DNA from: Flavobacteriaceae bacterium
GTDB lineage: Bacteria > Bacteroidota > Bacteroidia > Flavobacteriales > Flavobacteriaceae
DNA length: 64,000 bases
NCBI GenBank assembly: GCA_014238425.1
Contig: JABABD010000009.1
Location: forward strand, 1-64,000
Reading direction: 5' to 3'
The position numbers were made by a program, and so were the translations under genes. Below the pieces are notes generated by a model. It did not search any database, was not told the DNA's origin, and was given only the letters and a program-made list of their open reading frames with translations. Shown here piece by piece: positions 16,826-59,159 of the stretch; position 1 is the first letter of the stretch; every line of letters starts with the position of its first letter.

Positions 16826-17581
16826 TTATTCAAGCCATAACTTAAAGTCCTTAACACGCTCTCTAGCAACAATTACGTCTTGATCATTATAGGAATTCAA
16901 CTTAATTTGAAGTCTTGAATTGGTATAACTCACCATATCCTTAATGGCGTTAATATTCACATAGAACTTGCGATTGATGCGGAAAAATACATCTGGCTGT
17001 AATTCGCCTTCCAGATGTTCTAATGTAGTATCAAGTAAATAATTACGTCCTTGTGTGGTATATGCATAAGTGCCTTTATTCTCACTATAAAAACATTCAA
17101 TTTCATCTACAGGAACCATTTTTAAATGTTGGCCGATTTTTATGGTAAAACGTTTTTTGTATTCACGGTCTATAGGATTAATGAGTAGTTTCTTGATGTC
17201 ATCAAAATCTAAAGTAACTTTCTGTCTTGTTGGTTGTTGTTCCTTGTATTTTTCAACAGCTTTAGCAAGTTCGACCTCATCTATAGGCTTTAATAGATAA
17301 TCAATGCTATTCAACTTAAAAGCTTGAAGGGCATATTCATCATAAGCGGTTGTAAAAATGATAGCGGATTTAATCTCGATAGTTTCGAATATTTCAAAAG
17401 AGAGACCATCGCTTAGTTGAATGTCCAAAAAAATTAAATCTGGATGTTCATTATTATTGAACCACTCGATGGATTCTTCTACTGAATGGAGCATTACACT
17501 TATATTCACATCCAACTCTGCCAGCATACGATTCAATCGTCTTGCTGATGGTTTTTCGTCTTCTATGATGATTATCTTCAT
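16826..17581 (-). CDS. LytTR-type response regulator
   Basis: Two-component response regulator of 251 residues. The receiver (1-120) has the acid pair EDE near residue 7 and the phospho-acceptor Asp53 in FLDIQLSDG, with the conserved Thr and Lys in FTTAYDEYA and YLLKPID. A LytTR DNA-binding domain follows from about 145 to the end (IGQHLKMVPVDEIECFYSEN, later FFRINRKFYVNINAI). Its ATG overlaps the stop codon of the 2TM gene before it, and the histidine kinase lies three genes upstream in the same operon, so that kinase is the probable partner. Confidence 0.93.
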   Translation of the reverse strand: MKIIIIEDEKPSARRLNRMLAELDVNISVMLHSVEESIEWFNNNEHPDLIFLDIQLSDGLSFEIFETIEIKSAIIFTTAYDEYALQAFKLNSIDYLLKPIDEVELAKAVEKYKEQQPTRQKVTLDFDDIKKLLINPIDREYKKRFTIKIGQHLKMVPVDEIECFYSENKGTYAYTTQGRNYLLDTTLEHLEGELQPDVFFRINRKFYVNINAIKDMVSYTNSRLQIKLNSYNDQDVIVARERVKDFKLWLE

Positions 17582-17928
17582 TCCCAGTTACGTTTATCTT
17601 TTTCTATCATCTCTTGAATCTTACGTTCTTCCCATTTTTTACCGAACAATAGGTCAGGTCCAAAAACACCAATGAAGTGAAAGAATAAACCAATACCCCA
17701 GAACAAGGCAACGGCAAACTTCTCAAAGCTAAAAAATGGTTCGTCCATATTATTATAACTAATAAGGATTATAAGCGAAATGTTTATGATAATGTAAATT
17801 GCTAAATGCCAATAAAACCCTATTAGTTTGTCCAATCTCTTTTTAGCTCTAATATAAGCCTCTTCGCGTTCAAATCTCTCCTGTGAATCGAACTGGTCGT
17901 TATCGTATGATTGTATATTTGTATTCAT
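17578..17928 (-). CDS. 2TM-domain protein (116 aa)
   Basis: Small inner-membrane protein made almost wholly of one 2TM domain (PF13239-like): an N-terminal AYIRAKKRLDKLIGFYWHLA helix, two membrane helices (about 40-58 and 72-92), and the closing motif GVFGPDLLFGKKWEERKI. The same motif closes the next 2TM protein and the C-terminus of the kinase in this operon, so three copies of one domain are made together. The stop overlaps the start of the response-regulator gene by four bases. Function of the domain is unknown; the context suggests it helps the kinase sense or assemble. Confidence 0.85.
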   Translation of the reverse strand: MNTNIQSYDNDQFDSQERFEREEAYIRAKKRLDKLIGFYWHLAIYIIINISLIILISYNNMDEPFFSFEKFAVALFWGIGLFFHFIGVFGPDLLFGKKWEERKIQEMIEKDKRNWE

Positions 17929-17953
17929 GATGTTGAATTTTAATTGATTACTA

Positions 17954-18268
17954 TTACTCTTCTTCCTGTTTCATATATTCCCTTAGCTTCCTTTCTTCCC
18001 AATCTCTGCCCAAAATAACATTAGGTCCAAAAACTGAGAACGCGTGTATAAGAATTAGAATTCCCCAGATTAATGGTGTTATGAAAGTGCTTAAATCGAA
18101 AAACACTTCATTAAAAGTCTCTCCATTATTCAAATTTCTTGTGATCTTGAATACGACCATGAATGTATTGATAATGAAATACACAATACTGTGGATGTAA
18201 AAACTTTTTAGTTTTTCTGCTTTATGTTTTGCGAATATATAAGCCATTCGCTTTCTTGAATCTTCCAT
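17954..18268 (-). CDS. 2TM-domain protein (104 aa)
   Basis: Second stand-alone 2TM protein. From the ATG at 18268 (residues MEDSRKRMAYIF) it has the amphipathic start, two membrane helices (about 20-40 and 50-75) and the closing motif SVFGPNVILGRDWEERKL. A TTG start at 18283 would overlap the kinase stop by ten bases; the ATG, five bases after that stop, is more likely. It is clearly related to its neighbour and to the kinase tail. It probably forms hetero-oligomers with them, which is an inference from the shared domain and operon. Confidence 0.85.
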   Translation of the reverse strand: MEDSRKRMAYIFAKHKAEKLKSFYIHSIVYFIINTFMVVFKITRNLNNGETFNEVFFDLSTFITPLIWGILILIHAFSVFGPNVILGRDWEERKLREYMKQEEE

Positions 18269-18273
18269 AATGC

Positions 18274-19620
18274 TTATTTCCAATTTTTTGTTTCTTCGTC
18301 CTTCATATATTGCTCAATCTTTCGTCGTTCCCATCCAGAACCAAATACACCGTCATTGACGAAGACTTTATAAGCATGAAAGCATATGCCGATTCCCCAG
18401 CCTAACATTGGCCACCAAAACCATTGATAATGCCATGACGTCCAGTAATTTACAAAAGCTAAAAATGGAATAATAATACAATACGAAATAATGCTATAGT
18501 AAAATTCCTTGAGCTCATCTACACGCTTTCTTGCACGTACATAGCTATCGTTCATTCTTGATGGAGTTTGTTGTGTTCTCATGATTGAAATTTGTTTAGT
18601 AAGCATAGGCAGTGCTACTGCAAAACGTTCTGCTTGTTGATTGATGATTACTTTTTTATTAGTTAATAAGTTATAGCGTTGCCTTATATTGTTTAAACCA
18701 ACACCACTACTCTTTTTTACAATTTGTTTTGGTTGTAGATTGTTAATTACTACTAGATTCTCTCCTTCTTCATAAATTTTAATATGCAATGGTTTTGAGC
18801 TGGTAACGGTATTGTGTTTCACCGCATTTTCCAATAGTAACTGTAAAGACAATGGCACTACTTTACTTTCAGGATTTGCTGCATGTTCTGGTATATCAAA
18901 TATGATACTATCTTCAAAACGCATCTTCAGTAAAGACATATAGGTTCTTGCAAAATCTAATTCTTCGTCTACTGTTACTAAATCTTTGTTCTTCTGCTCT
19001 AATACATAACGATACACTTTAGACAATGCCGTTGTAAACCGCTGTGCATTTTTAGGGTTTTCATCTATTAAACTCGTTAACACATTCAAACTATTAAATA
19101 GAAAATGAGGATCTAACTGATTTTTTAAAGCATCGAACTTGGCACTAGCTGTACCGGCAATTACCTTCTGTTCTTTAATCCTATTTTTTTGATACCTATT
19201 ATAGAAATACACAAAGTGAAAGATGATAACGATAGTCAGTGTTATCCATAACCCAAAACTATAATGATTCCACTTCTGGTTAGTGATAAATGCTTCAAAT
19301 GATTGGCCATAAAATGTAACCGTTATAAACATTCTCAACAAAAAAATCATAATCATCGTTATAACTACTGATCCAGTAATACCGATAACAATTCTCTTGA
19401 TATTGATCTTTCCTGAGCCCCAATTAATAGTTTCGAGGTAATCAAAGAAAAACTTATTGCTATATCCAAGTACAAATGAATATAATTGGTATATGGCAAA
19501 TTCAATTAAGAACTCATTTGTATTCTCATAATCAAATCCATCATAAAGGATGTTACCCACCATATAGACAGCAACTCCTATAAAAAACGTAATCAATATG
19601 TCTCTGGTGGTTTTATTCAT
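18274..19620 (-). CDS. LytS-type histidine kinase fused to a C-terminal 2TM domain
   Basis: Membrane sensor kinase of 448 residues. Four or so N-terminal membrane helices (5-25, 38-55, 73-100, 120-140) lead into a His_kinase domain: NQLDPHFLFNSLN with the phospho-acceptor His172, the N box LLLENAVKHN (Asn265) and the G box GVGLNNIRQRY (306-316). After the ATPase core, at about 346, a complete 2TM domain begins (YVRARKRVDELKEFY) and ends with VFGSGWERRKIEQY. The kinase core is normal; the added 2TM tail is the unusual part, since the next two genes code for free copies of it. The operon ends with a LytTR regulator, its likely partner. Internal Met347 or Met356 could also yield a free 2TM product. 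Confidence 0.9.
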   Translation of the reverse strand: MNKTTRDILITFFIGVAVYMVGNILYDGFDYENTNEFLIEFAIYQLYSFVLGYSNKFFFDYLETINWGSGKINIKRIVIGITGSVVITMIMIFLLRMFITVTFYGQSFEAFITNQKWNHYSFGLWITLTIVIIFHFVYFYNRYQKNRIKEQKVIAGTASAKFDALKNQLDPHFLFNSLNVLTSLIDENPKNAQRFTTALSKVYRYVLEQKNKDLVTVDEELDFARTYMSLLKMRFEDSIIFDIPEHAANPESKVVPLSLQLLLENAVKHNTVTSSKPLHIKIYEEGENLVVINNLQPKQIVKKSSGVGLNNIRQRYNLLTNKKVIINQQAERFAVALPMLTKQISIMRTQQTPSRMNDSYVRARKRVDELKEFYYSIISYCIIIPFLAFVNYWTSWHYQWFWWPMLGWGIGICFHAYKVFVNDGVFGSGWERRKIEQYMKDEETKNWK

Positions 19621-19644
19621 GATAAATTCTTTGTGTTATGACCT

Positions 19645-20268
19645 CTACTTTTTACAGTCTTCGAGTATCTGTTTTGCTCTACCTTCTCCCCATTTTGGGT
19701 GGAATTCGCTTTCTGGTTTAAAGTTAGCAAAAAGTTCTAAGGAGCGTTCTACATCTTTACAAAAGGGTTTTGTATCCTGACCAAAAAACTTTGCGCCTCC
19801 CATATCCCATTCAGCTTTATTCAAAACCACTCTCGGATTATCTGGAGCTATCTGTTGCGCCTTAGCATATATCTGCATAACTGTTCCTGACAGCTTCATA
19901 CCATATGTAGCGCCATCATATGCCACCCAAGCCGTGTGTAGTAAGGCTTGCATCACCATAATTTCAGGGTTGTCCTTTGATATGGCTGTCGCGTCGTTAA
20001 GTAAATCTTGAGCCTTATTCAATTGCGCAGTCAGTTTATCTATGTCTTTCTCACCAAAACTAGAGGTGATGTTAATTTGCGCCGCCCAATATGGTGGTAG
20101 CCAATTATCGGGTTCAGCTGTAGCAATGCGCTCAAATAAATTAGCGGCTTCTGTTGATTTGTTTTCTCCCCAAAGTTCAAATGCCTTTTCCATGCCTTTT
20201 TCATAGTTGTTTTGTCCAGCAACAATAAAGGACATTAATAATACGGTAATGGTGATAAATCGTTTCAT
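19645..20268 (-). CDS. Secreted TPR-like repeat protein (207 aa)
   Basis: A 19-residue signal peptide (MKRFITITVLLMSFIVAGQ) precedes a helical protein with tetratricopeptide-like pairs, for example YEKGMEKAFELWGENKSTEA, the phrase IATAEPDNWLPPYW, and the later AQQIAPDNPRVVLNKAEW. Two cysteines near the end (PFCKDVERS, LEDCKK) may form a disulfide. It is periplasmic or surface-exposed. The gene lies between the DUF2141 gene (11 bases upstream) and the kinase gene (24 bases downstream) and is very likely part of that signalling operon. Its role is unknown; a periplasmic partner of the kinase is one possibility. Confidence 0.75.
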   Translation of the reverse strand: MKRFITITVLLMSFIVAGQNNYEKGMEKAFELWGENKSTEAANLFERIATAEPDNWLPPYWAAQINITSSFGEKDIDKLTAQLNKAQDLLNDATAISKDNPEIMVMQALLHTAWVAYDGATYGMKLSGTVMQIYAKAQQIAPDNPRVVLNKAEWDMGGAKFFGQDTKPFCKDVERSLELFANFKPESEFHPKWGEGRAKQILEDCKK

Positions 20269-20279
20269 TTTCTAGTTTT

Positions 20280-20696
20280 TTAAAGTTTAATATTTTGAAT
20301 AATAGTTTCATTTTTCATTTCGAACTTGGCATCTTGCCATTTTGGTGGTCCAAAAAATGCTTTGGCTCTATTTGAACAGGCATTATCTTCTTTAGGAATG
20401 CCCATGAAATTCATATCGATCTCATTGTTATCATTCTCATCATGAAAAACTGAAATCGCATATACGCCTCGAGAAATATTCTTGAAGGTTACTTTGCTTT
20501 TTCCATCCTCTATTTTCCCGATGAGGCCCTTATGTGGCGTTTCCAACCAATTGCCTTCAGATACATATAGACCTACCATGATCTTTCCATTATTATTGTC
20601 AATATTTGAGATGTTGACAATAATATCTTCCCCTTCTGTAGTCTGTGCGAAACCAATTGATGAGATTAGCATTGCGATTATAATAAGATATTTCAT
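20280..20696 (-). CDS. DUF2141 secreted protein (copy A)
   Basis: Secreted beta-sandwich protein of 138 residues with a signal peptide ending GFAQ. The family core is visible: NNNGKIMVGLYVSEGNW, then VTFKNISRGVYAISVFHDEN, and DNNEIDMNFMGIPKE. The phrase FHDENDNNEID resembles an acidic calcium-type loop. A clear paralogue of the same length is at 51787-52203. It appears to be the first gene of the kinase/2TM/LytTR operon. Function of the family is unknown. Confidence 0.82.
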   Translation of the reverse strand: MKYLIIIAMLISSIGFAQTTEGEDIIVNISNIDNNNGKIMVGLYVSEGNWLETPHKGLIGKIEDGKSKVTFKNISRGVYAISVFHDENDNNEIDMNFMGIPKEDNACSNRAKAFFGPPKWQDAKFEMKNETIIQNIKL

Positions 20697-20842
20697 AATT
20701 GTACATTCTTTAATTGTGAATCAAATATCCAACGAAACTTAAAGTTTTTAAAAAGACAGTTACCGAATTGTAAGTTATAATGGATGAATTGTATAAAGTT
20801 TGATTTTGTATAAAAATTAGCCAAGCATAAATATGTTATAAA

Positions 20843-20862
20843 ATAAAAGTGATTACTTTTAT
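20843..20862. promoter_or_regulatory. Perfect inverted repeat before the membrane LytTR gene
   Basis: ATAAAAGT-GATT-ACTTTTAT, eight-base arms around four bases, ending four bases before the ATG at 20867. It could be an operator, for example for autoregulation by the LytTR protein, or a leader hairpin that hides the start. Confidence 0.45.
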
Positions 20863-20866
20863 CTTA

Positions 20867-21655
20867 ATGAAATCACTGAAACTAAACACCTCTTATAAGC
20901 ATCATTCAATAGTAGGATTAATAATAGGTGTATGGCTAGCACTTTTCTTAGTACTTATTGCTCCTTTTGATGCATCAGATCTTCCCTTTTTAATACGTCT
21001 AGAAATCCTACCTTTTTATGGCGTTATTTCATTCTTGAGTTATATCATCATCATACCATTACAAAATTGGGTATTTAAAAAATTACAGAAATGGACTCTT
21101 TTAACTGAGATAACGTTCATTATTGTTTTGAACTTAGTAGTATTAATTGGAAGCTACTTTTATTATAAAACAGAGATTATAAATGGCACATATTCATTTA
21201 TCACATTCACATTAGAAGTCTATTATCCGATCTTCTTTATTTTGCTAATCGTATTAATTTTTGCCAGATGGTACCTCAATAAAAAAACGCCTAGTCCAAA
21301 AAATGAAAAAATAATTCTCAAAGGCGACAACAAGTTAGACGTATTGCAAATCGAGATTTCAGATCTAGTAAGTATTTCTAGTGCTGACAACTATATCGAA
21401 GTTAATTATCTTAAAAATGGTTCTTTACAAAAAAAATTATTGCGAACGACCCTAAAGAATGTTCATGCGGATTTACCAAGTTTATTAAAAGTACATAGAT
21501 CATACCTCATAAATCCAACGCATTTTAAAGAATGGAAGAATTCAAATACTTTGTACTTAACCCAAATGGAAGTGCCCGTTTCTAAAAATTATAAAAAAGA
21601 GGTTTTGGTTATGAATCATTCATCCCTAAAAACAACGGATTCGCCCCAATACTAA
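20867..21655 (+). CDS. Membrane-bound LytTR-domain transcription regulator
   Basis: About 262 residues: four membrane helices (near 18-37, 50-68, 80-98 and 113-135) then a cytoplasmic LytTR DNA-binding domain (about 155-250; IEISDLVSISSADNYIEVNY and LLKVHRSYLINPTHF). There is no receiver domain, so it is likely to respond directly to a membrane signal. I use the ATG at 20867; a GTG at 20849 would lie inside a palindrome. It is divergent from the DUF2141/kinase operon and may regulate it or the hydrolase gene 69 bases downstream. Confidence 0.85.
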   Translation: MKSLKLNTSYKHHSIVGLIIGVWLALFLVLIAPFDASDLPFLIRLEILPFYGVISFLSYIIIIPLQNWVFKKLQKWTLLTEITFIIVLNLVVLIGSYFYYKTEIINGTYSFITFTLEVYYPIFFILLIVLIFARWYLNKKTPSPKNEKIILKGDNKLDVLQIEISDLVSISSADNYIEVNYLKNGSLQKKLLRTTLKNVHADLPSLLKVHRSYLINPTHFKEWKNSNTLYLTQMEVPVSKNYKKEVLVMNHSSLKTTDSPQY

Positions 21656-28470: not shown

Positions 28471-28554
28471 GGAAAATCCTATGGATTTTCCTCTAGCTTG
28501 TTTCATTTTTGCTAAATGAGTTGTTTAACTATACACGAACGCGTCGGCGAAACC
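28471..28554. repeat. Degenerate intergenic element, copy B
   Basis: Perfect hairpin GGAAAATCC-TAT-GGATTTTCC (28471-28491), then a tail starting ATACACGAAC (28531-28554) that reaches the stop codon of the TonB-receptor gene. It matches copy A at 23634-23690 in hairpin and tail. The hairpin may double as a terminator between the converging genes, although it has no long T run. Confidence 0.5.
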
Positions 28555-30704
28555 TACAAATTATCCAACTGATTACTACTATTATCTTCGCTGATCGTCC
28601 AGAAGAATCCAACGAAAAAGAACTGATCTGCTGCTGGTCGTAATTGGCGTCTTGCAAAATTACCGTTAAGGCCTGGTGTGTTTGCATATTGGTACCCGTT
28701 GACATTCTTGAATCCTAAAACGTTATTGATGGAAAAGTACAAGATTTTTTGTTGACTCAATAAATAGGCCCAGTTAAGACTCAGGCTGTTGTAAGACTTT
28801 GTTTTTTGGTTCAAGAATCCAGCAACATTCGGATTGGTATACGTTCTTCCTGACGCAAAACCATAGCTTGCACCAACTTGGCTTTTCCAATCGGCAATCC
28901 AATATTTAGCGACTACAGATAAATTATGTGTGTTGGCGAAGTTTGGTTGCGCTTCTGATAGATAGTTTCTGTAATCACGCTTAGAATCCAACAGCGAGTA
29001 GCTCACCCAGTAATCCATATTCTTGATGCTCTTGCTATCTCTCCAGAACAAGTCGATGCCTTTGGCAAAACCTGAACCATTATTATTATAATTACTATCA
29101 AAACTCTCGAACTCAGTATCGTACTTAATCAGATCTCTATAATCCTTATAATAAGCTTCAGCCCTAAAAATCTGACCCTTATTGTTGAGTTGATAGTTTA
29201 ATATATAATGTGATGTTTTCTGCGCTTGTAAGTCCTGTTCGAATTTCAAGATATTAGAGGTTGGATTCTGATAAAAATCGCCATAAGCTAAAGACACTTG
29301 ACTTTTAGCTGACGTTTTATAAGCTAGAGATAATCGAGGTGACACTGTAAACTCCTTAAACACATCACTGTACTCTCCACGTATTCCTGCTTTCATAGCT
29401 AGCTTTTTAGAAAAGAAAATATCGGCTTCCGTAAACGCAGCAGCGATATTGCTTTTATAACCATAGGTTTCATCTGCGAACTCATTATTGAAATCCTCAT
29501 TGAAATCCGTAGCAAAATAATCTGCACCAAAATTGAGTTTAAAGCTGCTACTAAAACGTCTCTTGAATTTTAGTTTAAGATGCGCAGATTTCTCTGTATC
29601 ATGAATATCACTGTCTATAATGCCTATCTTGTTTTTGGCGTAGGTATAACTCAGCCCACCAAACATGCTCCAGACATCACTGAGCATGCCTTGATAAGAT
29701 CCATTGATATAGAGATTGTTGTTCTTTAGCTTAAAATCTAGCCCTTCAGAAAGGTCAATATCTTCTTGGGTCAATTCAAAATTCGAGCTATCAAAAGCGG
29801 TATACAACTTGAAAACACCATCATCTGTTCTATATCTAAAAACAGCTTCCCCTGCTAAGCCTTCATAAGGTTTTTCCCAATCATTCCTATCTGGGAACAA
29901 AGCGATATAAGGAGCCAAATTAATATATGATGCGTTAACACTTACCGAACTCTTCTCCCATTTTTGGGTATTGCCGAGAGTTGCACCTACCGTCATGATG
30001 CCGATGTCTGTTTTTTCTTGGTCTGGTTCGTCAATCGTATTCAATAATAATACACTAGACAATGCTTGGCCATATTCAGCAGAATACCCTCCAGTTGAAA
30101 ATGTAATGCCATCAAATAAAAATGGTGAATAACGCCCACGCGTTGGCGTGTTATTAGTCGTTGGTGTATATGGTGTAAACACGCGAATACCATCAATAAA
30201 TATTTGTGTTTCATCCGCTTCTCCTCCCCTTACGAAAAGACGTCCATCTTCGGCAACGGTAGTAGTACCAGGAAGCGTTTGCAAGGCTCCGACAAAATCA
30301 CCTAAAGCACTCGCTGTCGTCACAACGTCCAAGGGTTTCAAAACAGATATCTTGCTATTGTCGCCCGCTTCAAAAGTTCCAGCAGACAATACTACGGCAT
30401 CTAACGTGTTCATATCGTCTTTTAATTTTATCTGTAAGTTTTTCATAACAGATACATTGCCATACATACTGAACGTTTCAAAGGACAAATAAGAGACTAT
30501 TAAGGTTTGATCTCCTGTTTCATCGGTTTTAAATGAGAACGTACCATCTGCGATTGAGGTCGTACCATCGTAGGTACCGTCCAAATAAACATTGGCTCCT
30601 TCAACAGGCATTCCTTTAGTATCTGTTACAGTTCCTGTAATGTTCACCTGAGCTGAAAGGGTTAAGTTCACGATTAAGAAAAAGATTGTAAATAATGATT
30701 TCAT
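28554..30704 (-). CDS. TonB-dependent outer-membrane receptor with carboxypeptidase-like domain
   Basis: Outer-membrane gated barrel of about 716 residues. A signal peptide (MKSLFTIFFLIVNLTLSAQ) precedes a carboxypeptidase-regulatory-like domain (about 20-105; NITGTVTDTKGMPVEGANVY), a plug domain (about 115-215; LQTLPGTTTVAEDGRLFVRG) and the barrel. It is shorter than SusC proteins and has no SusD partner, so siderophore, vitamin, peptide or metal uptake is more likely than glycan uptake. The start at 30704 is chosen because it gives the signal peptide. It is divergent from the YhhN gene, and its leader carries ATCAATC repeats. Confidence 0.9.
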   Translation of the reverse strand: MKSLFTIFFLIVNLTLSAQVNITGTVTDTKGMPVEGANVYLDGTYDGTTSIADGTFSFKTDETGDQTLIVSYLSFETFSMYGNVSVMKNLQIKLKDDMNTLDAVVLSAGTFEAGDNSKISVLKPLDVVTTASALGDFVGALQTLPGTTTVAEDGRLFVRGGEADETQIFIDGIRVFTPYTPTTNNTPTRGRYSPFLFDGITFSTGGYSAEYGQALSSVLLLNTIDEPDQEKTDIGIMTVGATLGNTQKWEKSSVSVNASYINLAPYIALFPDRNDWEKPYEGLAGEAVFRYRTDDGVFKLYTAFDSSNFELTQEDIDLSEGLDFKLKNNNLYINGSYQGMLSDVWSMFGGLSYTYAKNKIGIIDSDIHDTEKSAHLKLKFKRRFSSSFKLNFGADYFATDFNEDFNNEFADETYGYKSNIAAAFTEADIFFSKKLAMKAGIRGEYSDVFKEFTVSPRLSLAYKTSAKSQVSLAYGDFYQNPTSNILKFEQDLQAQKTSHYILNYQLNNKGQIFRAEAYYKDYRDLIKYDTEFESFDSNYNNNGSGFAKGIDLFWRDSKSIKNMDYWVSYSLLDSKRDYRNYLSEAQPNFANTHNLSVVAKYWIADWKSQVGASYGFASGRTYTNPNVAGFLNQKTKSYNSLSLNWAYLLSQQKILYFSINNVLGFKNVNGYQYANTPGLNGNFARRQLRPAADQFFFVGFFWTISEDNSSNQLDNL

Positions 30705-30821
30705 GATTGATGGTTTTATTGATTTTGATTGATGGCTCAAAAATCTAATTCTTCTTGTCCTAATAAAACTTAAAACGACCGAACTGTTATTTTTATAAGA
30801 TGAATTGAATATATTTAGACA

Positions 30822-51686: not shown

Positions 51687-51786
51687 TACAATTCGGTAAG
51701 TATATTTTACAATTGAGTCAATAAGTTTATTAATTGTTCTTGATACTGATGACATTTGTCGTGTTAATCATTAAAAACAGAACATT

Positions 51787-52203
51787 ATGAAAACTTTATT
51801 TTTATTCATTGCAATTTTATTTTCAACACTAGGTTTTGCTCAAGAAACAGAAGGTATTTCCATTGAAATCTCTATTGATAACATACTGAACAATAAAGGA
51901 AAAATCATCCTTGCACTTCATACATCTGAGACATTCATGAAAGGTCCAGGCATACTTAATGAAGTAAGTTCAATAACAGATGGAAAAGTAACTGTTAGCT
52001 TTAAGAACGTTAAGCCAGGAACTTATGCCGTTATAGCTCTACATGACGAAAACGAAAACAATAGAATGGATTTTCAAGATAACGGAATGCCAAAGGAAAG
52101 TTATGGCTCTTCAAACAATCCAATGGCTTATGGGCCACCTCAATTCTCTGAATCGAAATTTGATGTAAGTACAGATAACCTCAAAATGGACATCAGGTTC
52201 TAA
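51787..52203 (+). CDS. DUF2141 secreted protein (copy B)
   Basis: Secreted protein of 138 residues with signal peptide ending GFAQ. It has the DUF2141 core: NNKGKIILALHTSETFM, VTVSFKNVKPGTYAVIALHD, and ENNRMDFQDNGMPKESYG. It equals copy A at 20280-20696 in length and domain order, and both carry the HDENxNN loop that may bind calcium. It is a single gene 101 bases after ompA-like and ends before a terminator hairpin at 52222-52259. Function unknown. Confidence 0.83.
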   Translation: MKTLFLFIAILFSTLGFAQETEGISIEISIDNILNNKGKIILALHTSETFMKGPGILNEVSSITDGKVTVSFKNVKPGTYAVIALHDENENNRMDFQDNGMPKESYGSSNNPMAYGPPQFSESKFDVSTDNLKMDIRF

Positions 52204-56200: not shown

Positions 56201-56542
56201 ATGAAAATAGAAAACACAAAAGCACAAATGCGTAAAGGTGTTCTGGAATACTGCATCCTATCCATCCTCAAGGATGAAGATGCATATGTAGCAGAAATAC
56301 TAGGCACACTTAAAGACGCAAAAATGCTTGTGGTGGAAGGAACTATATATCCTTTACTAACAAGGCTCAAAAATGCTGGCCTACTCAATTATCGTTGGGA
56401 AGAGTCAACATCTGGACCTCCGAGAAAATATTACGGCTTAACAGAAACCGGAAAGCTCTTTTTAAAGGAACTTAATGGTACTTGGAGCGATTTACAAAAT
56501 GCCGTTAACCTAGTAACAAGACAAAAAAACACCAAAAAATGA
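56201..56542 (+). CDS. PadR-family transcriptional regulator
   Basis: Winged-helix repressor of 113 residues: RKGVLEYCILSILKDEDAYV (helices 1-2), ILGTLKDAKMLVVEGTIYPL (recognition helix), TRLKNAGLLNYRWEESTSG and PPRKYYGLTETGKLFLKEL (wing). PadR proteins often control a PspC-type or ABC gene next door. Its stop overlaps the start of the PspC gene (ATGA), so the two are translated together, and autoregulation of the unit is likely. Confidence 0.93.
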   Translation: MKIENTKAQMRKGVLEYCILSILKDEDAYVAEILGTLKDAKMLVVEGTIYPLLTRLKNAGLLNYRWEESTSGPPRKYYGLTETGKLFLKELNGTWSDLQNAVNLVTRQKNTKK

Positions 56543-58314
56543 ATAAAACAGTCAACATAAATTTAGCAGGTATATTTTTTCACATAGATGAAGATGCATA
56601 CTCAAAATTGCAACGCTATCTTGAGGCTATAAAACGTTCATTTACAGACTCTCAAGGACGATCAGAAATCATTGCAGATATAGAAGCTCGAATTAGTGAA
56701 CTATTCAACGAAAGAGTTGATAACGACAAACAAGTTGTTGGTGTCAAGATCGTTGATGAGGTCATAGCTATTATGGGGCAGCCTGAGGACTATCTAGTAG
56801 ATGATGAAATTTTCGAAGATGAACCAAAAGCTTGGGACAGAAAATCAAGAAGCTCAAAGAAATTATTCAGGGATACTGATAACTCTTATATAGGAGGTGT
56901 GTCTTCTGGACTAGCTCATTACTTAGGTATTGATACTGTATGGGTAAGATTACTTTGGATATTACTAGCTATTGGATCAGGAGGTACATTTATATTCATC
57001 TATATATTGTTCTGGATTCTTGTTCCTGAAGCCTTAACAACGTCAGAGAAGCTGACAATGACTGGAGAGCCTGTGAATATCAGCAACATTGAAAAAAAAA
57101 TCAAGGACGGCTTTGAAAGTGTTTCAGAAACCTTATCAGATACCGTAAAAAATATTGATTTACCCAGGCAAGGCGAACGCGTAAAATCCACTTCAAAGTC
57201 TTTTTTCGATTCGTTAGGTGATGTCATCATGTTTTTCTTGAAGGTATTTGCCAAGTTCATTGGGGTCATTATGATCATTGTGGGCGCAGCAACTTTAATC
57301 GCATTAGTAATTGCAGCATTTACAACAGGAATAGCTGATGCCATTCATATCCCTGGATTCGATGTTGCCGAAGCTGCAGTTTCAAGTAGAACGCCCATTT
57401 GGCTAGTATCTCTCTTGGCTTTATTTGCAGTAGGAATTCCGTTTTTTATCCTCTTTTATTTAGGATTGAAAATATTAGTAAACAACTTGAAATCCATTGG
57501 AAATGTTGCTAAGTTCAGTTTATTGGGTCTTTGGTTAATATCAATTATCTCTCTAGCAGTGTTAGGCATAAGACAAGTAGCCGAACATGCTATGGATGCT
57601 AGCGTTACAGAACAAAAAGAGCTAATGATCGCCTCAAATGACACGCTACATATCAAAATGGCAAATAGCTCTATGTATACAAAACGTTTTGGAAGATATA
57701 GTAGTGACCCATTTAGATTGGTGTACGATGCAAACGATGAGAAGATAATTTATTCTTCTGATGTAAGATTAATCGTTAGATCAACAAAAGATTCGGTAGC
57801 ATCTTTAGGTATCGAGAAAATTGCTGATGCAAGAACTTATCAAGAAGCTAAAGAGTTTGCAAACAATATAAATTACGGTTACAAATTAAATGGGAATACA
57901 TTATTACTCAATTCGTATTTGACCACAGCATTAGAAAATAAGTATCATGACCAAAAAGTAGAATTGACACTTTACTTACCAGAAGGCACAACTGTTTTTG
58001 CAGATGACAACACCTATTCTTATCATAGAAATTCAGATTATTATAATGATATATTGAAAAACGGTACAGAAGAACATTATTTAAAAGTCATCGAAGATGA
58101 TATGATATGTCTAGATTGTGATGATGATAATTACAAAGTAAAAGTCGATTTACATGATGACACATCTGGTATTAAGATTGATGATGACGGCGTAGAAATA
58201 AAAACCGACAGAAGTAGTCTTAAGATAGATGACGATGGTATTAAAGCGAAAACAGATAACGTCAAAGTCAATATAGATGATGACGGAATCGAAATCACAT
58301 CAGACGATAACTAA
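56539..58314 (+). CDS. PspC-domain membrane protein (591 aa)
   Basis: Envelope-stress-type protein. The N-terminus (1-100; NINLAGIFFHIDEDAYSKLQ, EIIADIEARISELFNERV) is a cytoplasmic domain that pairs with PspC in Bacteroidota. The PspC domain is at about 105-165 (GVSSGLAHYLGIDTVWVRLL, ILFWILVPEA). Three more helices follow (about 230-260, 285-310, 320-345), then a large domain (about 365-591) ending in three repeats of the type IDDDGxxxK. In E. coli PspC controls the phage-shock regulon; here a direct partner is the PadR regulator, inferred from overlap. Confidence 0.9.
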   Translation: MNKTVNINLAGIFFHIDEDAYSKLQRYLEAIKRSFTDSQGRSEIIADIEARISELFNERVDNDKQVVGVKIVDEVIAIMGQPEDYLVDDEIFEDEPKAWDRKSRSSKKLFRDTDNSYIGGVSSGLAHYLGIDTVWVRLLWILLAIGSGGTFIFIYILFWILVPEALTTSEKLTMTGEPVNISNIEKKIKDGFESVSETLSDTVKNIDLPRQGERVKSTSKSFFDSLGDVIMFFLKVFAKFIGVIMIIVGAATLIALVIAAFTTGIADAIHIPGFDVAEAAVSSRTPIWLVSLLALFAVGIPFFILFYLGLKILVNNLKSIGNVAKFSLLGLWLISIISLAVLGIRQVAEHAMDASVTEQKELMIASNDTLHIKMANSSMYTKRFGRYSSDPFRLVYDANDEKIIYSSDVRLIVRSTKDSVASLGIEKIADARTYQEAKEFANNINYGYKLNGNTLLLNSYLTTALENKYHDQKVELTLYLPEGTTVFADDNTYSYHRNSDYYNDILKNGTEEHYLKVIEDDMICLDCDDDNYKVKVDLHDDTSGIKIDDDGVEIKTDRSSLKIDDDGIKAKTDNVKVNIDDDGIEITSDDN

Positions 58315-58430
58315 CAATTCAGTAATAAAAATCAACAATTGGGTAACCTATTATTTAAATAGTTCGTCTATATAATTAGTTTTAACCCATAATTAAAATC
58401 ACTAAAAAAACAATCAAAAAACAAATAGTT

Positions 58431-59159
58431 ATGACAACACTAGCAAAAATCATCGTCACAGTAGTCATGAGTTTACTCCTATTCTCATGTAATTTCGATA
58501 TTAATTTCGGTCCAGGCGTTAGAGGCAATGGAAACGTTACAACAGAAACTAGAAATCTGGATGCTTCGTTCCATAGTATCAAAGCCGCAGAAGGTTTGGA
58601 TGTATATCTTACACAAGGCAATTCCGAAAGTATAAAAGTACAAGCAGATGACAACCTTCATGAGGTTATCTTAACAGAAATAAATGACGGAGTTCTTTAC
58701 ATTCATACTAAAGAGAATATCGCCCACTCTTCAGCACAAAAAGTTATGGTAGAGTTTGACAATATAGAACGTATTACCTCAACAAGTGGTAGTGATGTAT
58801 ATTCAACTAATACTATCAAAACAGATAGACTAGAACTTAAAAGCACAAGCGGTAGTGACATGGAACTTAAGATAGATGCAAACACCGTATCCTGTAAAGC
58901 AACAAGTGGTAGTGATCTAAGACTTTCAGGCACAACAGATAGATTAACTGCAGAGTCAACAAGTGGTAGCGATATAAAAGCCGCAAAATTAAAAGCAAAA
59001 ACATGCAATGCTAAAGCAACTAGCGGAAGTGATATAACATTATATTCATCAGATGAGTTAACAGCTAAAGCAACCAGTGGCGGAGACATTACCTATTATG
59101 GCAATCCAGATAAAGTAAATAAAAGTGACGGCGTATCAGGCTCCATAAGAAAACACTAA
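58431..59159 (+). CDS. Head GIN/DUF2807 lipoprotein with TSGSD repeats (242 aa)
   Basis: Lipoprotein of 242 residues (signal ending LLLFSC, Cys near 21). The DUF2807 domain opens with FHSIKAAEGLDVYLTQGN and then repeats short beta-strand units, each with TSGSD: STSGSDVYS, STSGSDMELK, ATSGSDLRLS, STSGSDIKAA, ATSGSDITLY, and a final TSGGDITYY. This fits a right-handed beta-helix with one turn per 20 residues or so. It is 116 bases after the PspC gene on the same strand. Family function unknown; PspC linkage suggests envelope or surface stress. Confidence 0.87.
   Translation: MTTLAKIIVTVVMSLLLFSCNFDINFGPGVRGNGNVTTETRNLDASFHSIKAAEGLDVYLTQGNSESIKVQADDNLHEVILTEINDGVLYIHTKENIAHSSAQKVMVEFDNIERITSTSGSDVYSTNTIKTDRLELKSTSGSDMELKIDANTVSCKATSGSDLRLSGTTDRLTAESTSGSDIKAAKLKAKTCNAKATSGSDITLYSSDELTAKATSGGDITYYGNPDKVNKSDGVSGSIRKH

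Follow-up and report, generated by a model that had tools for sequence, protein, structure and literature searches.

Shared 2TM domains in a LytS/LytTR two-component operon of Flavobacteriaceae and its predicted envelope regulon

Introduction

Why should a single two-component operon encode the same membrane domain three times? This question is raised by a locus within a stretch of 64,000 nucleotides from a Flavobacteriaceae bacterium (assembly GCA_014238425.1, contig JABABD010000009.1; hereafter the window), in which a 2TM domain (PF13239) forms the C-terminal tail of a sensor histidine kinase and recurs in two free proteins encoded between this kinase and a LytTR regulator. An earlier note on the sequence had proposed a membrane sensing complex with mixed 2TM subunits. 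Within open-access papers, we found no study of PF13239, its function, or this operon; earlier work elsewhere is possible.

Composition of the operon

All six genes are encoded on the minus strand and lie where the earlier note had placed them. Pfam matches confirmed the two secreted proteins, a DUF2141 protein as operon gene 1 (20280-20696, 107.5 bits) and a TPR-like protein as operon gene 1 or 2 (19645-20268, TPR_19 28.9 bits at a cut-off of 25). The sensor kinase of 448 aa (18274-19620, His_kinase 89.1 bits) consists of a 4TM region, a LytS-type His_kinase/ATPase core, a linker, and indeed a complete C-terminal 2TM domain at residues 362-440 (18301-18537, PF13239 95.9 bits and, in another search, 100.7 bits). 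As described before, two free 2TM genes and the regulator come next: 2TMa (17954-18268, 104 aa from ATG 18268, 71.0 bits), 2TMb (17578-17928, 116 aa, type II, 84.0 bits), and a REC-LytTR response regulator of 251 aa (16826-17581, LytTR 75.6 bits, Response_reg 53.2 bits). The curated Pfam cut-off for PF13239 is 24.8 bits and is exceeded severalfold by all three operon matches (95.9, 84.0, and 71.0 bits), which therefore are not due to chance. The fourth 2TM domain of this genome is located outside the operon and is fused to a dihydrofolate reductase.

Two details of the earlier description have to be narrowed. The closing motif WExRKI, assigned to all three copies, is present in the kinase tail and 2TMb (one reads WERRKI, the other WEERKI), whereas 2TMa ends in WEERKL. 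Likewise, the overlap of 2TMb and the regulator is real and comprises 4 bp (17578-17581, ATGA), whereas kinase and 2TMa overlap only if the alternative start TTG 18283 is used; with the likelier ATG 18268 they are separated by a 5-bp gap.

Conservation of the arrangement

Among 100 sampled Flavobacteriaceae genomes, 87 contain a PF13239 match and 76, about three quarters, contain the kinase. We collected 160 loci with 154 distinct kinases: 58 operon neighbourhoods of the family, 22 loci found on searching the order and the phylum, and 80 loci taken from named genomes. In this set, chosen from 2TM matches or with a fused-kinase profile, the kinase carries the 2TM tail in 154 of 154 distinct operons, each of them with at least one and up to six free 2TM genes downstream. 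Three operons seemingly lacking a free 2TM gene proved to be artefacts of ORF calling, as the reading frames show one in each. Following the 2TM genes downstream leads to the LytTR regulator in 144 of the 154 operons. Upstream of the kinase, a TPR-like gene is found within three genes in 114 and a DUF2141 gene in 42 of them.

A query with the kinase lacking its tail served as test independent of this selection. Within the family, all orthologs scoring at least 253 bits are encoded in long open frames of 440-547 aa (one of them interrupted by a stop), followed in score by a paralog of 175 bits in a 367-aa frame; a tailless ortholog accompanied by scattered free 2TM genes, named beforehand as the refuting case, was not seen in the family with this query. 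Fused kinases occur in two families of the order, the Flavobacteriaceae and a second one that we guess to be Weeksellaceae-like, and were not found in the other sampled families of the phylum. As judged from the sequences, the arrangement of kinase tail and free 2TM proteins is ancient and obligate.

Several further genes were recurrently observed in these neighbourhoods. Operons of the second family host an ICMT/PEMT-like methyltransferase gene of about 190 aa among the 2TM genes (L136:6849-7421, L160:7628-8203). Another recurring product is a small multi-helix protein of about 156-168 aa (L037:10842-11312, L070:10621-11094, L145:6992-7498, L304), encoded between 2TMb and the regulator or, in another family, beside a free 2TM gene; in L304 it stands behind an operator. 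In a few genomes, a secreted amidohydrolase-like protein of about 380 aa is inserted before the regulator (L053:11209-12345, L062:7666-8808).

Kinases without the 2TM tail

Extension of the analysis to another order of the same class revealed an orthologous kinase of about 345 aa with the same 4TM front and no tail. Its operon is ordered as free 2TM gene, kinase, and LytTR regulator, often with overlapping ends. In 199 genomes of this order searched with an unfused kinase, all eight genomes with a match of at least 280 bits have an adjacent 2TM gene; the next score is 204. In a quick tree with three paralogs as outgroup, unfused and fused kinases are sister groups, far from the paralogs (SH-aLRT 78 for the unfused clade). 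In addition, tandem 2TM-2TM proteins, in which two free 2TMs are joined, were detected at two loci (L204 and L212).

A domain that is fused in one lineage and encoded next door in another is standard evidence for a physical association, here of the kinase with the 2TM protein. Together with the obligate co-occurrence and the 2TM-2TM fusions, this lends strong though indirect support to the proposal that the free 2TM proteins would form a physical complex with the kinase. The unfused 2TM gene is found upstream of the kinase, the fused domain at the kinase C-terminus; owing to this difference in gene order, simply joining the two neighbours cannot have produced the fusion, and a derivation of the tail straight from the upstream neighbour was dropped.

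Alternatively, the free 2TMs might be spare copies from repeated duplication of the tail, tolerated with little function and not acting as partners. The 2TM domain tree is short, mostly unresolved, and distinguishes only two broad types. Some extra copies lie close to their local kinase tail, the copy number varies between one and six, and 2TMa of the window is a divergent, lineage-specific extra copy (best identity 49%). However, at least one free 2TM gene was never lost in 154 operons, a copy adjoining the kinase is retained by the unfused lineages as well, and the type II copies cluster, with weak support, apart from the tails, making redundancy of all free copies very improbable.

Structure of the kinase and its 2TM domains

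The kinase is intact; its phospho-accepting histidine and the residues of the N and G boxes (H172, N265, and G308) do not vary among 78 aligned kinases. AlphaFold2 modelled it (pLDDT 84.9, pTM 0.48) with four N-terminal helices, the histidine kinase core, a poorly predicted linker at about 341-356, and tail helices at 356-394, 402-420, and 428-445; because of the low pTM, the placement of the tail is not fixed by this model. Matches in the PDB cover only the core and include GanS, DesK, and AgrC. For 2TMb, two long helices are predicted (8-59 and 68-115, pLDDT 84.9), and PDB fold and profile searches with the 2TM hairpin yielded no usable match and no solved relative.

A function as generic inner-membrane anchor without a role in signal control, the free copies anchoring something else, would be in line with the dihydrofolate reductase fusion in this genome and with a 2TM gene adjoining folA in another. 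Yet the kinase already has four membrane helices and needs no anchor, and an operon would gain nothing from as many as six free anchors. We consider this explanation quite improbable and continue to regard the free 2TMs as probable partners of the kinase.

The model of 2TMb places one histidine in each membrane helix, H41 and H84, at 18 and 17 residues from the same connecting loop and thus at apparently the same depth. Of 359 free copies, 252 have both histidines, as do 10 of 11 copies from fusion-free genomes but only seven kinase tails; at least one free copy with both was found in 145 of 157 operons. These patterns allow a reading in which the free 2TM is the true sensor, binding haem, a metal, a quinone, or a lipid head group with its histidine pair, while the tail, having lost the first histidine, only docks. 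The kinases share ancestry, and the loss in their tails may represent one or few events. Against this reading, the histidines also occur in 2TMs of unrelated contexts, such as copies beside housekeeping genes or linked to folA, and might have a structural role; copies with both are absent from some Weeksellaceae-like operons, and fold and profile searches revealed no ligand-binding homolog. Ligand sensing by the free copies is rated as unlikely compared with their tuning of the kinase.

Operator and promoter

A search for direct-repeat motifs upstream of the operon delivered a predicted operator, ACARTTCRK-N12-ACARTTCRG, i.e., a tandem direct repeat with a 21-bp period. The common 9-bp repeat contains 11.2 bits, compared with 3.6 bits in shuffled sequence. 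In 94 of 100 distinct operator-bearing operons, the TTTG of the Bacteroidota -7 element follows exactly 37 bp after the operator, a position not used in training the motif; no operator exceeding the threshold was detected in about 30% of the operons. Inspection of 35 sites at this distance gave TTTG in 29, TTTA in five, and TTAG in one. In the window, the predicted operator is situated at 20763-20792 and, together with its TTTG 37 bp downstream, defines the operon promoter (20722-20792, minus strand).

The exact operator was detected in 43 of the 76 kinase-bearing family genomes versus none of the 24 kinase-free ones (Fisher p = 1.2e-7, weakened by shared ancestry and by smaller genomes among the 24), and a reversed-pattern control gave no match in 100 genomes. 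It is also located upstream of several unfused operons (L147, L176, L180, L183). This pairing of operator and regulator by co-occurrence and location suggests that the regulator binds the tandem operator. In LytTR systems, repeats of the same length and spacing just upstream of the promoter lead to positive feedback (PMC6193735).

Divergent from the operon, a second, membrane-anchored LytTR protein is encoded at 20849-21655, and the predicted operator falls inside the common intergenic region. Both could be co-regulated.

Predicted regulon

Genome-wide, six places combine operator and -7 element at up to three mismatches, every one of them with zero or one and none with two or three, while the reversed control gave one match per strand. 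Four of these six predicted promoters are located within the window. Besides that of the operon, they precede a gene for a TonB-dependent-receptor-like outer-membrane protein, a second DUF2141 gene, and a DUF2807 (Toastrack) gene, each operator having one mismatch. The first of these promoters (30738-30808, minus strand, TTTG at +37) belongs to the receptor-like gene at 28554-30740 (minus strand, probable ATG at about 30704; CarbopepD_reg_2 57.8 bits, Plug 30.4 bits), whose product resembles that of a ~717-aa gene upstream of the operon in relatives. The second (51688-51758, plus strand, TTTG at +37) precedes the DUF2141 gene at 51787-52203 (plus strand, 109.4 bits). The third (58314-58384, plus strand, TTTA at +37) lies just past the pspC stop and precedes the DUF2807 gene at 58431-59159 (plus strand, 166.2 bits); the PspC/LiaF-TM/Toastrack gene directly preceding the latter (56539-58314) is outside the kinase operon. 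Of the remaining two predicted promoters, one stands before an ABC exporter comprising ATPase and permease, the other before an S41-like protein whose end is TPR-like; the names S41 and permease reflect how we read these sequences.

Relatives carry the exact operator in front of DUF2807, the TonB-receptor-like gene, and DUF2141 as well as in front of the operon, the DUF2807 site recurring in six other genomes. DUF2807 has been unified with Toastrack, a component of the PSP and Lia envelope-stress systems (PMC11237479). The predicted targets are envelope genes; the TonB-receptor-like and S41-like ones are no proof of a stress role. Because a second DUF2141 gene and several envelope genes carry the same operator, the DUF2141 and TPR proteins look like outputs and, contrary to the earlier proposal, need not belong to the sensing complex.

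Comparison with known systems

By every feature tested, namely the kinase boxes, the REC-LytTR architecture, and the predicted operator of 21-bp period, the system is classified as a LytS/LytTR two-component system. It shares kinase core and REC-LytTR regulator with BtsSR, YpdAB, LytSR, and AgrCA; the best NCBIfam matches of the regulator are BtsR and LytR, both well under their cut-offs. None of these four systems is known to have a 2TM tail or 2TM accessory genes.

A different comparison is offered by LiaFSR of Firmicutes, where a single autoregulated operon likewise encodes kinase, regulator, and a small membrane protein, with an output touching Toastrack/PspC-type envelope proteins, and in which LiaF inhibits LiaS (PMC7191749). 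In contrast, the present operon combines a LytS-type kinase (His_kinase PF06580) carrying a 2TM tail with a LytTR regulator and one to six copies of PF13239 as its only accessory proteins; an accessory of LiaF type (LiaI-LiaF-TM plus Toastrack) is absent from it. On this domain evidence, the system is LiaFSR-like in logic and not a member, its accessory part being unrelated. The LytTR Regulatory Systems HdrRM and BrsRM similarly place a LytTR activator beside a membrane protein (PMC6193735), but work without kinase and receiver. With a full kinase and a Response_reg domain (53.2 bits) predicted here, the system is not one of them.

A LytTR regulator and a kinase of Flavobacterium johnsoniae (FJOH_RS09515/09520) were mutated in parallel in a coevolution study (PMC10197871). 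They probably do not represent this system, as no 2TM genes would fit between their adjacent locus numbers. A PADLOC search indicated no link to defence except a weak match to the receiver domain.

Proposed mechanism and significance

Taken together, we regard an autoregulated three-component envelope-stress system, in which the free 2TM proteins tune the kinase, as the probable function of the operon. The two-component core would consist of the 4TM kinase of LytS type and the LytTR regulator. The 2TM proteins, as third component, would bind the kinase via its tail or via other 2TM copies and set the balance of kinase and phosphatase activity according to the state of the cytoplasmic membrane. 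Once phosphorylated, the regulator would bind the tandem 9-bp repeats just upstream of the rigidly spaced promoters and activate its own operon as well as about five envelope promoters (TonB-receptor-like, DUF2141, DUF2807/Toastrack, ABC exporter, and S41-like). Both the autoactivation and membrane or envelope stress as stimulus are what we infer from these data. As the free 2TM genes are part of the self-activated operon, the level of their products would rise with activation. The sign of control is the weakest step of this mechanism: that the free 2TMs act mainly as feedback inhibitors, by analogy to LiaF, is a guess barely better than a coin toss.

A bolder extension would see PF13239 as modular intramembrane sensor, the paired histidines of the free copies binding a membrane cofactor or ligand and mixed oligomers of one to six copies with the kinase tail forming a tunable array that controls the envelope-stress regulon in Flavobacteriaceae and the Weeksellaceae-like family. 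We consider this unlikely and prefer the tuning of the kinase by free 2TMs as working model. It defines a signalling system by an uncharacterised accessory family, a precise predicted operator, and a predicted regulon of six promoters in this genome, and provides a first testable role for the 2TM domain. Moreover, it connects envelope genes of the PspC/Toastrack type with a two-component system of Bacteroidota, and the pair of kinase tail and free subunit represents a natural test of kinase control by shared transmembrane domains.

Further contexts of the 2TM domain

The 2TM domain was also encountered in surroundings other than this operon. In the genome of the window, the gene directly behind that for thymidylate synthase encodes a dihydrofolate reductase with the domain fused to its N-terminus (L003:1483-2337, C36:256043); among other genomes, G040 (L091) has a 2TM fusion as well, and G007 (L092) a separate 2TM gene overlapping folA. 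A membrane-tethered folate enzyme would be odd. Another regulatory use is suggested by the fusion of a 2TM-like with a helix-turn-helix domain (L186:1225-1737). Outside the class, a distinct family of 184-202-aa proteins has the 2TM domain behind a helical N-terminus of about 70 aa and is encoded beside various housekeeping genes (L150, L151, L154, L172).
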